A stretch of 64,000 bases of DNA from Salinivirga cyanobacteriivorans. Lineage in GTDB: Bacteria; Bacteroidota; Bacteroidia; Bacteroidales; Salinivirgaceae. The DNA is taken from assembly GCF_001443605.1 (NCBI RefSeq), contig NZ_CP013118.1, positions 1,333,075 to 1,397,074 of the forward strand, given 5' to 3'. A program made the translations under genes and the position numbers. Positions 60,287-63,225 of the stretch are shown piece after piece (positions within the stretch are counted from its first letter, which is position 1; the number at the start of each line of letters is the position of its first letter). Under the pieces are notes generated by a model that saw only the letters and a program-made list of their open reading frames with translations, was not told the origin of the DNA and did no database searches.

Positions 60287-60315
60287 TGCACTGCCTCAGG
60301 TTTTTTAATGTTGTG

Positions 60316-60599
60316 CTTTCGCCCCTTCAGGGCGAACTTTCCACACCTGCTGAATCTGCAGTGGGCGTTGCCCACTGTTAATGCTGAAAGCCCTTCGGGC
60401 TCTGAGCAAAGATGTTCAGAGGAAGTTAGTGCCTTAAACCATTCAGAATTTTTTAGCTACATCAATAAAGAAGCTACCTGTAAGTGAAGACGCAAAAAAG
60501 CCATTCGGCCTAACCCAGCACCGAAGGTGCGCAAGCAAATAAGGCAGGGCGAAGCCCTGTCGCAATGCCAGTGCGAGGGTTGCCCTGAAGGGGCAAAAG
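60316..60599. repeat. 284-bp hairpin-rich repeat R, copy 1
   Basis: R has 20-bp imperfect inverted ends (CTTT-C/T-GCCCCTTCAGGGC-G/A-A, 18 of 20 matching) and a series of small hairpins: CAGTGGGC-gtt-GCCCACTG, AGCCC-ttc-GGGCT, GCACC-gaa-GGTGC, CAGGGC-gaa-GCCCTG and TCGCA/TGCGA. Copy 1 differs from copies 2 and 3 only at 60336 (A instead of G). It fills the 319 bp between the phosphofructokinase and the first transposase gene. This is the architecture of REP/BIME sequences tied to a RAYT-type transposase. Confidence 0.88.
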
Positions 60600-60605
60600 C
60601 CAAAG

Positions 60606-61058
60606 TTAATCCCAAATATAGCGCTCATCATAATCAACTTCGTACTTCTTCAAAAAAGCTTGCAATTCCTCTTTAAAACTTCTTTTCTGGTGATGTCTCT
60701 TCTGATTCTTGATATATCGCTCAACAATATCAACTTCTGTAGGATTAACAGAGAAAATACCATAACCATTTTGCCAGTAAAAGTTGCTATATTTCTTATC
60801 TACTCCTTTAATCCACAATGATGACTGCTTTTTAAGCTCTTCCAATAATTTGGATTGAGTAACTTTACGGGATAATGTGCATAAAACATGCACATGATTT
60901 TTAAATCCACCTACTTGTATTGGATTACATTCCAACCCCTTGCAAATTCCGCCAAGGTAATCAAACAATCTGCCTTCAATTGACTCATCGATAGCATCTT
61001 CCCTGTGTTTTGTACTAAATGTAATGTGGACATAAACTTTTGATAATGACTGTGGCAT
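60606..61058 (-). CDS. Single-domain Y1/HUH transposase (IS200/REP-associated type), copy 1
   Basis: This 150-aa protein has the Y1_Tnp fold. The HUH metal motif is H55-V-H57, the nucleophile is Tyr115 in RYIKNQ with Gln119 four residues on (the YxxxQ motif), and the N-terminus is SLSKVYVHITFSTKHRED. Such enzymes nick and join single-stranded DNA at hairpins. All catalytic residues are present, so it should be active. No TnpB or other accessory gene is nearby. It starts 6 bp past copy 1 of R (read on the plus strand). An AGGTTATT stretch precedes the ATG. Confidence 0.9.
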   Translation of the reverse strand: MPQSLSKVYVHITFSTKHREDAIDESIEGRLFDYLGGICKGLECNPIQVGGFKNHVHVLCTLSRKVTQSKLLEELKKQSSLWIKGVDKKYSNFYWQNGYGIFSVNPTEVDIVERYIKNQKRHHQKRSFKEELQAFLKKYEVDYDERYIWD

Positions 61059-61141
61059 AATAACCTGTTTTTGTTCTGTTTTCCTGTTTTAAGAAGCGAT
61101 GAACTTCATGGTGATGTTTCAAGCCTCTTCTGGTTTATATC

Positions 61142-61166
61142 AAAGATAGAGAATTATTCTATCTTT
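61142..61166. repeat. Hairpin upstream of transposase copy 1
   Basis: AAAGATAGA (61142-61150) / TCTATCTTT (61158-61166), a 9-bp stem with a 7-nt loop, directly abutting repeat R copy 2. It recurs at 61989-62013 but is absent before R copy 1. It overlaps a TATCTTTG -7-like element on the minus strand and could be a transposon-end hairpin. Confidence 0.6.
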
Positions 61167-61446
61167 CGCCCCTTCAGGGCGAGCTTTCCACACCTGCTGA
61201 ATCTGCAGTGGGCGTTGCCCACTGTTAATGCTGAAAGCCCTTCGGGCTCTGAGCAAAGATGTTCAGAGGAAGTTAGTGCCTTAAACCATTCAGAATTTTT
61301 TAGCTACATCAATAAAGAAGCTACCTGTAAGTGAAGACGCAAAAAAGCCATTCGGCCTAACCCAGCACCGAAGGTGCGCAAGCAAATAAGGCAGGGCGAA
61401 GCCCTGTCGCAATGCCAGTGCGAGGGTTGCCCTGAAGGGGCAAAAG
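61163..61446. repeat. 284-bp hairpin-rich repeat R, copy 2
   Basis: Identical to copy 3 and one base different from copy 1. It lies between the two transposase genes; the 394 bp between these genes holds only R2, the 61142-61166 hairpin and the transposase leader. Confidence 0.88.
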
Positions 61447-61452
61447 CCAAAG

Positions 61453-61905
61453 TTAATCCCAAATATAGCGCTCATCATAATCAACTTCGTACTTCTTCAA
61501 AAAAGCTTGCAATTCCTCTTTAAAACTTCTTTTCTGGTGATGTCTCTTCTGATTCTTGATATATCGCTCAACAATATCAACTTCTGTAGGATTAACAGAG
61601 AAAATACCATAACCATTTTGCCAGTAAAAGTTGCTATATTTCTTATCTACTCCTTTAATCCACAATGATGACTGCTTTTTAAGCTCTTCCAATAATTTGG
61701 ATTGAGTAACTTTACGGGATAATGTGCATAAAACATGCACATGATTTTTAAATCCACCTACTTGTATTGGATTACATTCCAACCCCTTGCAAATTCCGCC
61801 AAGGTAATCAAACAATCTGCCTTCAATTGACTCATCGATAGCATCTTCCCTGTGTTTTGTACTAAATGTAATGTGGACATAAACTTTTGATAATGACTGT
61901 GGCAT
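61453..61905 (-). CDS. Single-domain Y1/HUH transposase (IS200/REP-associated type), copy 2
   Basis: Amino-acid sequence identical to copy 1 (150 aa; HUH at residues 55-57, Tyr115, Gln119), displaced by exactly 847 bp. Both copies keep an intact frame, as expected for a very recent duplication. Confidence 0.9.
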   Translation of the reverse strand: MPQSLSKVYVHITFSTKHREDAIDESIEGRLFDYLGGICKGLECNPIQVGGFKNHVHVLCTLSRKVTQSKLLEELKKQSSLWIKGVDKKYSNFYWQNGYGIFSVNPTEVDIVERYIKNQKRHHQKRSFKEELQAFLKKYEVDYDERYIWD

Positions 61906-61988
61906 AATAACCTGTTTTTGTTCTGTTTTCCTGTTTTAAGAAGCGATGAACTTCATGGTGATGTTTCAAGCCTCTTCTGGTTTATATC

Positions 61989-62013
61989 AAAGATAGAGAA
62001 TTATTCTATCTTT
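61989..62013. repeat. Hairpin upstream of transposase copy 2
   Basis: The same AAAGATAGA/TCTATCTTT stem as at 61142-61166, at the 847-bp offset, abutting R copy 3. Confidence 0.6.
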
Positions 62014-62293
62014 CGCCCCTTCAGGGCGAGCTTTCCACACCTGCTGAATCTGCAGTGGGCGTTGCCCACTGTTAATGCTGAAAGCCCTTCGGGCTCTGAG
62101 CAAAGATGTTCAGAGGAAGTTAGTGCCTTAAACCATTCAGAATTTTTTAGCTACATCAATAAAGAAGCTACCTGTAAGTGAAGACGCAAAAAAGCCATTC
62201 GGCCTAACCCAGCACCGAAGGTGCGCAAGCAAATAAGGCAGGGCGAAGCCCTGTCGCAATGCCAGTGCGAGGGTTGCCCTGAAGGGGCAAAAG
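62010..62293. repeat. 284-bp hairpin-rich repeat R, copy 3
   Basis: Last repeat of the array; homology to copies 1 and 2 stops exactly after CAAAAG at 62293. The remaining 95 bp up to the nuclease gene (62294-62388) are unique and hold nothing I can identify. Confidence 0.88.
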
Positions 62294-62388
62294 AAACTAG
62301 ACTTTAAATCAATGAAGCTTGCAGGAGAAACCCACAAAAAGCGACTTCCAATCTTGATGCAGTAATCTTCTTTGGTTTTTTTCAAACT

Positions 62389-63225
62389 TTAAACAACTGC
62401 AGCCAACTCATTTTTTAATCTTTTTAAACGGGGAGCTGTCAATTTAAGCTTGTCGAGCGAGTTCATCTTTTGAGATAATTGATTACATGTCACGACACCC
62501 TGTTCAAGCAATACTTTTTTGTGCGCTTTGGTCAAATTGCGCAATATGGTGATGGGGTAAATTTTATAATCTTCAATTAGGTTTTTCAGACCCTTTCCAT
62601 GCGGATAATCCCAAGCCAACAAATTCAACCCACTACATTTCCCATATTGAATAGAGTCTTCTGAAAAACGAGTATTGGTGACAACCCAACCTTCAAAATG
62701 ATAATTTTTGGTGGCCGGAATAGTTCGACGTTTTTTTACGATATCATCCACACGTGAATGCACATACAATGGCACCTGCACACCAACCTGTTTCCCCTGA
62801 TGTTTGCTGTATTTGCATTCAACAAGATGTTGCTGATTATTGTGCGTGGCAATCACGTCCATTTCATGCGTCACGCAGGTTCCATCGACCACTACGCCCA
62901 CCTCAGTGGAGTAACCTTGTTTTTCGAACAACTGACCGATAAGTGTCTCAAACGGATAACCCGATGGCCCAAGCTCCAGTATAGCTCTTTTTAACCGATA
63001 ACGCAACCCCGAAACATCGGGTTGTTTTTTAAGTAATGAAAAAGCATGGCTATATATTTTTTTGGTGGTTACGCCATGATAAAGCCACTTGTACATCTCT
63101 TCAACAATTTTGTCAATAATAGCTTTATCAGCTCCGGCATTGCGCAAAGAGCGTTTTAATTTATCTACGGAAAATGGTTCCTCCTCCCCTGAGGCTTTGG
63201 TTACCCATATTTGTTTTTCTGTCAT
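62389..63225 (-). CDS. ATP-cone domain fused to a PD-(D/E)XK-type nuclease domain
   Basis: This is a 278-aa protein in three parts. Residues about 5-90 form an ATP-cone (IWVTKASGEEEPFSVDKLKR, LRNAGADKAIIDKIVEEMY), a nucleotide-sensing module best known from ribonucleotide reductase. Residues about 95-215 resemble a restriction-endonuclease/Mrr-like fold: FETLIGQLFEKQGY, then HEMDVIA and HLVECKYSKHQG giving the Asp and Glu-x-Lys catalytic set. The C-terminus (about 225-278) has two helix-turn-helix-like or HhH units. It may be a nucleotide-regulated DNA repair or defence nuclease. It is a single gene next to the transposase array. Confidence 0.75.
   Translation of the reverse strand: MTEKQIWVTKASGEEEPFSVDKLKRSLRNAGADKAIIDKIVEEMYKWLYHGVTTKKIYSHAFSLLKKQPDVSGLRYRLKRAILELGPSGYPFETLIGQLFEKQGYSTEVGVVVDGTCVTHEMDVIATHNNQQHLVECKYSKHQGKQVGVQVPLYVHSRVDDIVKKRRTIPATKNYHFEGWVVTNTRFSEDSIQYGKCSGLNLLAWDYPHGKGLKNLIEDYKIYPITILRNLTKAHKKVLLEQGVVTCNQLSQKMNSLDKLKLTAPRLKRLKNELAAVV

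Follow-up and report, generated by a model that had tools for sequence, protein, structure and literature searches.

The window analyzed here, a 64,000-nucleotide stretch of the Salinivirga cyanobacteriivorans genome, contained an array at positions 60316-62293 in which three copies of a 284-bp repeat (R) alternated with two copies of a transposase gene (T), in the order R1-T-R2-T-R3. Sequence comparison showed that R1 (60316-60599), R2 (61163-61446), and R3 (62010-62293) were spaced 847 and 847 bp apart from start to start. R2 and R3 were exactly the same, and R1 differed from them at a single base, position 21 of the repeat (window 60336), which was A in R1 and G in R2 and R3. The two T segments between the repeats were 563 bp each with no base differences, and the minus-strand genes T1 (60606-61058) and T2 (61453-61905), which were identical base for base, encoded the same 150-aa protein. 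Since the identity was exact over 563 bp and 284 bp, chance was excluded as the source of the array. These data confirmed the 847-bp period and the identical transposases reported in the first-pass annotation. On the left, a phosphofructokinase gene ended 29 bp before R1, and on the right, a gene for an Mrr-like nuclease ended 95 bp after R3. The product of the gene adjoining the array (62389-63225) combined an ATP-cone with an Mrr-type nuclease domain and an AF1548-like C-terminal domain.

The T protein matched the Pfam family Y1_Tnp (PF01797, E = 2.3e-22) and scored 60.9 bits with the NCBIfam model for IS200/IS605 transposases (NF033573, cut-off 55), and it carried the motifs NHVH, WQ, and YIKNQKRHH, which bore out its earlier description as a single-domain HUH/Y1 transposase. 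Its best sequence match in the PDB was the TnpA of IS608. Structure alignment of a model predicted from 29 relatives (mean pLDDT 87.8) gave Z scores of 13-14 with IS200/IS605 TnpA and 9.5 with the RAYT 4er8, and the nearest folds were those of the IS608 and ISDra2 TnpA proteins. The relatives of T found in public genomes came from Bacteroidota. Among the close relatives, Y...Q..HH was present in 84 of 85 and WQ in all 85, while the HuH motif read DH[VI]H in 66 and NH[VI]H in 16. Residues H55, H57, W95, Q96, Y115, Q119, H122, and H123 were invariant in the alignment, and the C-terminal tail was conserved, most relatives ending in YDERY.WD. The host genome contained four Y1 genes, two of which were the tandem T pair; the others were 29-33% identical to it, and a search with a model of the repeat unit described below found no unit at these two distant genes.

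Subclass 1.2 of TnpA_Y1 has been defined by the signature YxxxQxxHH (Y motif YIKNQKEHH), the HuH motif DH[IV]H, and the W motif WQ (Quentin et al., 2018; PMC6006769). Its members have a median length of 148 aa, consist of the core and a short specific C-terminal tail, occur in low copy, and are hosted by Bacteroidota and Cyanobacteria (PMC6006769). T agreed with this description in its Y, HuH, and WQ motifs, its length, its tail, its host phylum, and its low copy number. The subclass was also given as lacking REPs and, generally, the terminal secondary structures of IS200 (PMC6006769); this was an observation in that study and not part of the definition, and it failed here, where repeats were present at most T loci.

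The first-pass annotation had described R as a palindromic repeat of 284 bp in three copies. The length and the copy number stood, but R was not one palindrome: it consisted of two units (r) of about 88 nt in inverted orientation, with hairpin H1 outside, around about 112 nt of other sequence. The 30-nt end arms of R were 80% complementary, and as single-stranded DNA R folded better than 200 of 200 shuffled sequences (z = -5.0). Each r comprised three hairpins, arranged as tag-H1-about 25 nt-H2-linker-tag-H3. In the relatives, the layout after the T stop codon was GCTTTC-H1 (GCCCT TTC AGGGC)-about 25 nt-H2 (CATAGGGC GTT GCCCTATG)-GCTATTGCT-H3, with the mirror image upstream. A covariance model of r was based on an alignment of 42 units (104 columns) from the T flanks of relatives. 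In the window, this model placed plus-strand units in the left halves of R1 (60314-60403, 64.8 bits), R2 upstream of T1 (61161-61250, 61.3 bits), and R3 upstream of T2 (62008-62097, 61.3 bits), and minus-strand units in the right halves of R1 directly downstream of T1 (60516-60601, 59.8 bits), R2 directly downstream of T2 (61363-61448, 59.8 bits), and R3 (62210-62295, 59.9 bits). A RAGATH-34 match in the region upstream of T was dismissed, as it scored 31.8 bits against a gathering score of 60.7. The open-licence literature searched contained no prior account of these repeats.

The three helices of r paired in 96.8% of the alignment cells, a percentage inflated by the use of a hairpin finder to select the units. 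Two-sided changes, which are less affected by such selection, were seen in 17 of 18 pairs, and the covariation score was 0.498, compared with 0.138 for shuffled alignments and at most 0.107 for slid versions. H1 and H3 shared a 5' tag, TGCT, TGAT, or TTAT depending on the lineage, located 3 nt before the hairpin. Matches between the H1 and H3 tags within units numbered 118 of 168 against 96 after shuffling, a comparison from which the relatedness of the sequences was not removed. Neither a GTAG tag (0/42 units) nor a CGTC tag was present.

These features bear on the first-pass view of the array as a Bacteroidota counterpart of the RAYT systems. The RAYT/TnpA_REP REPtrons of enterobacteria, pseudomonads, and xanthomonads, with their REPs, BIMEs, and REPINs, likewise combine a low-copy Y1 gene with flanking palindromic units, and their cognate units likewise lie dispersed outside genes, often in inverse pairs. 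However, T has Q where the class 2 Y..NP motif would place NP, H1 and H3 are preceded by TGCT, TGAT, or TTAT in place of the GTAG-type tag found at the 5' hairpin foot, r has three hairpins, and the nearest fold of T is the IS200-type TnpA. The identification of T as a RAYT was therefore dropped; judged by its motifs, T is a member of TnpA_Y1 subclass 1.2.

We analyzed 80 loci of T relatives for r. Within 150 nt of T, an r unit was present on the upstream side in 57 of 77 loci, on the downstream side in 64 of 78, and on both sides in 48 of 75, and 4 of the 80 loci were without any r; the sequences counted are related and not independent. The nearest upstream unit was on the strand opposite T in 55 of 58 cases, and the nearest downstream unit was on the T strand in 60 of 65. 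The density of r near T was 2.09 per kb, 29 times that in the rest of the loci (0.072 per kb). Part of this association is biased, as the sequences behind the r model were taken from T flanks and selected for hairpins; outside this bias stand the Rfam model RF01687, considered below, and the Persicobacter plasmid locus L198, which was outside the model set and had an r immediately adjoining T on each side. In addition, a model-free alignment of the flanks, with a threshold of 40 bits, detected direct repeats across T in 31 of 78 loci and inverted ones in 28 of 78; the controls gave 0 and 1 of 154 pairs. The pairing of T with r thus recurs across Bacteroidota. The suggestion that the repeat may be the substrate of its own transposase is supported by this comparative evidence, namely the position of r beside T, its orientation, and its covariation.

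The H2-linker-H3 part of r coincided with an Rfam family. Acido-Lenti-1 RNA (RF01687) was reported from Acidobacteria and Lentisphaerae and interpreted as a probable non-coding RNA that is probably not cis-regulatory (Weinberg et al., 2010; PMC2864571); its function is still little known, and it has been taken as a possible regulatory RNA (PMC13298647). Its two hairpins, of 8 and 5 bp, and its 12-nt linker coincided with H2-linker-H3 of r. The window copies matched weakly on the minus strand at 60517-60559, and likewise at 61364-61406 and 62211-62253, with 21.2 bits (E = 0.061), under the gathering score of 37 bits. The gathering score was reached at other T loci (L108, L113, L105, L018, L117, L098, and others). 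RF01687 and T were no more than a few hundred bases apart in genomes G120 (6 of 6 genome hits), G166, G179, G211, and G083. Among 148 evenly drawn Bacteroidota genomes, RF01687, whose model is independent of the present data, was found in 8 of 11 genomes with a close T and in 21 of 137 others (genome-level P = 9.8e-5). Head-to-tail arrays of r/Acido-Lenti-1 with a spacing of 66-88 nt were seen at G120:C30:19085-19394, G040:C122:6471-7069, and L080:3416-3852, those of G120 and L080 adjoining T.

It could be argued from this match that r is an RNA with a regulatory or structural role, as RF01687 is classed, and that its proximity to a transposase is incidental. Covarying stems are equally expected of an RNA, and one Flavobacterium copy (L131, see below) falls between the stop codon of a gene and its terminator. 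Such a reading is nevertheless very unlikely in view of the tight mirror-image units on both sides of T, the mixed orientation with inverted pairs and tandem arrays, the presence/absence at orthologous sites, and the high and variable copy number. The comparison instead suggests that RF01687 is really part of the r repeat, and may be DNA rather than RNA.

The dispersal of r was examined in the host and in related genomes. Solo copies of R, for which a search of the whole genome had been proposed, were not present in intact form: the search with R found no fourth intact copy in the 4.81-Mb single-contig genome, with one diverged neighbor 6 kb away. The r model detected two diverged R-like pairs (C1:1401540-1401722 and C1:633452-633753) and a weaker variant family, so that R is barely dispersed in this genome beyond the array. 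A second dispersed repeat family, with a first hairpin TTTCGCCG...CGGCGA followed by H2/H3-like hairpins, occurred in the host genome at G000:C1 334645, 334870, 2374524, 2374889, 2381576, 2382083, 2383715, and 2392825, with weak further matches at 2542669, 4304981, and 4660061; no cognate transposase for this family was identified in the host genome. In all 22 T-bearing genomes searched r was present, in 1 to 73 scored copies each (lower bounds). Among 41 relatives of the host genome, all 9 with a close T held at least two r, against 1 of 11 without a T-like protein (P = 1.2e-4). In Flavobacterium, 36 of 37 sampled copies were outside open reading frames (1 of 37 inside), in DNA that was 72% coding. 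Three Flavobacterium genomes (F. tructae, F. collinsii, and Flavobacterium sp. UGB4466) carried the T-less r'-r element L131. In F. araucananum and F. piscis, the site between stop codon and terminator was uninterrupted. This comparison documents presence/absence at the species level, and not its direction or its agent. In F. collinsii (L152, L154, L156-L159, and L163) a dispersed repeat of about 640 bp with conserved flanks carried an r'-r pair in its middle, and since these copies lie inside the longer repeat they give no element boundaries. The interval between the pfk and mrr genes of a congener (G002) was rejected as a clean empty site, because it was without T and r yet held another gene.

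The dispersed pairs could also be read as deletion derivatives, comparable to MITEs or PATEs, of an ordinary IS200/IS605-type insertion sequence with hairpin-rich ends, the tandem then being an excised circle inserted beside itself. PATEs are derivatives of IS200/IS605 insertion sequences, elements that excise and insert as single strands beside a fixed tetra- or pentanucleotide. T shares the catalytic core and the Y---Q motif with IS200/IS605 and exceeds the IS200 model's cut-off, its nearest folds are the IS608/ISDra2 TnpA proteins, hairpins lie at both gene ends, and the T-less r'-r pairs of Flavobacterium, with their presence/absence, are oriented as r'-T-r minus T. No tnpB was seen beside T in the window. 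However, T copies were few and diverged in each genome, unlike near-identical multi-copy insertion sequences; in the host only the tandem pair was identical. Each end carries three mirror-oriented hairpins instead of one subterminal hairpin, T is rarely multiplied while solo repeats number in the tens, and r far outnumbers T in several genomes. No match was found on phages, and only two large plasmids had matches; a plasmid search with the array DNA gave one match only, which was weak and came from Persicobacter. An ordinary insertion sequence is therefore an unlikely account of these data.

The tandem itself was considered next to a congener. In G002, locus L017 carried one R-T-R unit (r+ r- T r+ r-) whose two R were in direct orientation, the repeat being 251 bp at 82% identity, and the T of this unit was 48% identical to the window T. 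From such an R-T-R ancestor, an unequal homologous exchange between its direct R copies would recently have produced R-T-R-T-R. If it took place to the right of position 21, in about 93% of R, this exchange would be expected to leave A-G-G at that base. A second tandem was present in the same genome at G000:C1:2381576-2384900 (locus L123, 9077-12501). Its 1632-bp units were 99.2% identical, exact over at least 1342 bp, contained two identical 282-aa genes, and each had variant r-like hairpin repeats at its borders. A transposase open reading frame was not found at this 1632-bp tandem, and recombination between such repeats may thus suffice. The expansion of an R-T-R by exchange between its repeats, as first proposed, gains support from the congener, from the direct repeats across T in relatives, and from this second repeat-bordered tandem. 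The tandem is probably an ordinary and unstable recombination product, though an excised circle may instead have inserted there.

Two units identical but for one base might also raise the suspicion of an assembly artefact. We consider this improbable, as the genome is a single contig, the base of R1 at 60336 is missing from R2 and R3, an imperfect repeat-bordered tandem (99.2%) occurs in the same genome, and short-read errors usually collapse tandems rather than create them. Tandem T copies were rejected as a common arrangement: the second Y1 genes in L070, L072, L091, and L102 were diverged (37-49% identical to T), and no other identical T tandem was seen among the loci of T relatives; short-read contigs could hide some such tandems. 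At L055:3713-3835, a remnant of a second tnpA (the first 45 codons, 56% identical) lay just upstream of the intact gene.

Taken with the comparative data, the array is likely to be a REPtron-like unit in which T acts on single-stranded r and in which recombination between direct R produced the tandem. T would be a single-domain HUH/Y1 nuclease/ligase for single-stranded DNA, with r as its partner, two inverted r forming R, and T placed between two direct R. Once r is exposed as single-stranded DNA, as may happen on the lagging-strand template, its hairpins would be bound by T, which would read the short 5' tag of H1 and H3 as a guide, cut by tyrosine Y115, and then rejoin the ends. Pairs of r would thereby be copied, or shifted to new intergenic positions, and T would for the most part remain in place. 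The T loci that lack r, the low dispersal of R in the host genome, and the RF01687 hits in genomes without a close T count against this REPtron-like interpretation. We infer that T and r work like a REPtron that comes from another branch, one reported without REPs. A broader proposal, on which we are evenly divided, is that subclass 1.2, together with its three-hairpin repeats, makes up a second REPIN/RAYT-like partnership, one that evolved separately and extends across Bacteroidota, and that Acido-Lenti-1 is their DNA substrate and not an RNA, also in the phyla of its original description.

On the evidence of its gene and repeats, the array appears to represent a branch of Y1 transposases hitherto not known to have repeats. 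For a group of transposases to which no such repeats had been ascribed, the r unit provides a likely DNA substrate and its anatomy. Reading it as a DNA substrate also offers a testable explanation for the orphan family RF01687. The natural T-r pairs found throughout the phylum, with their covarying hairpins and tags, are material from which the recognition rules of Y1 enzymes may be worked out.
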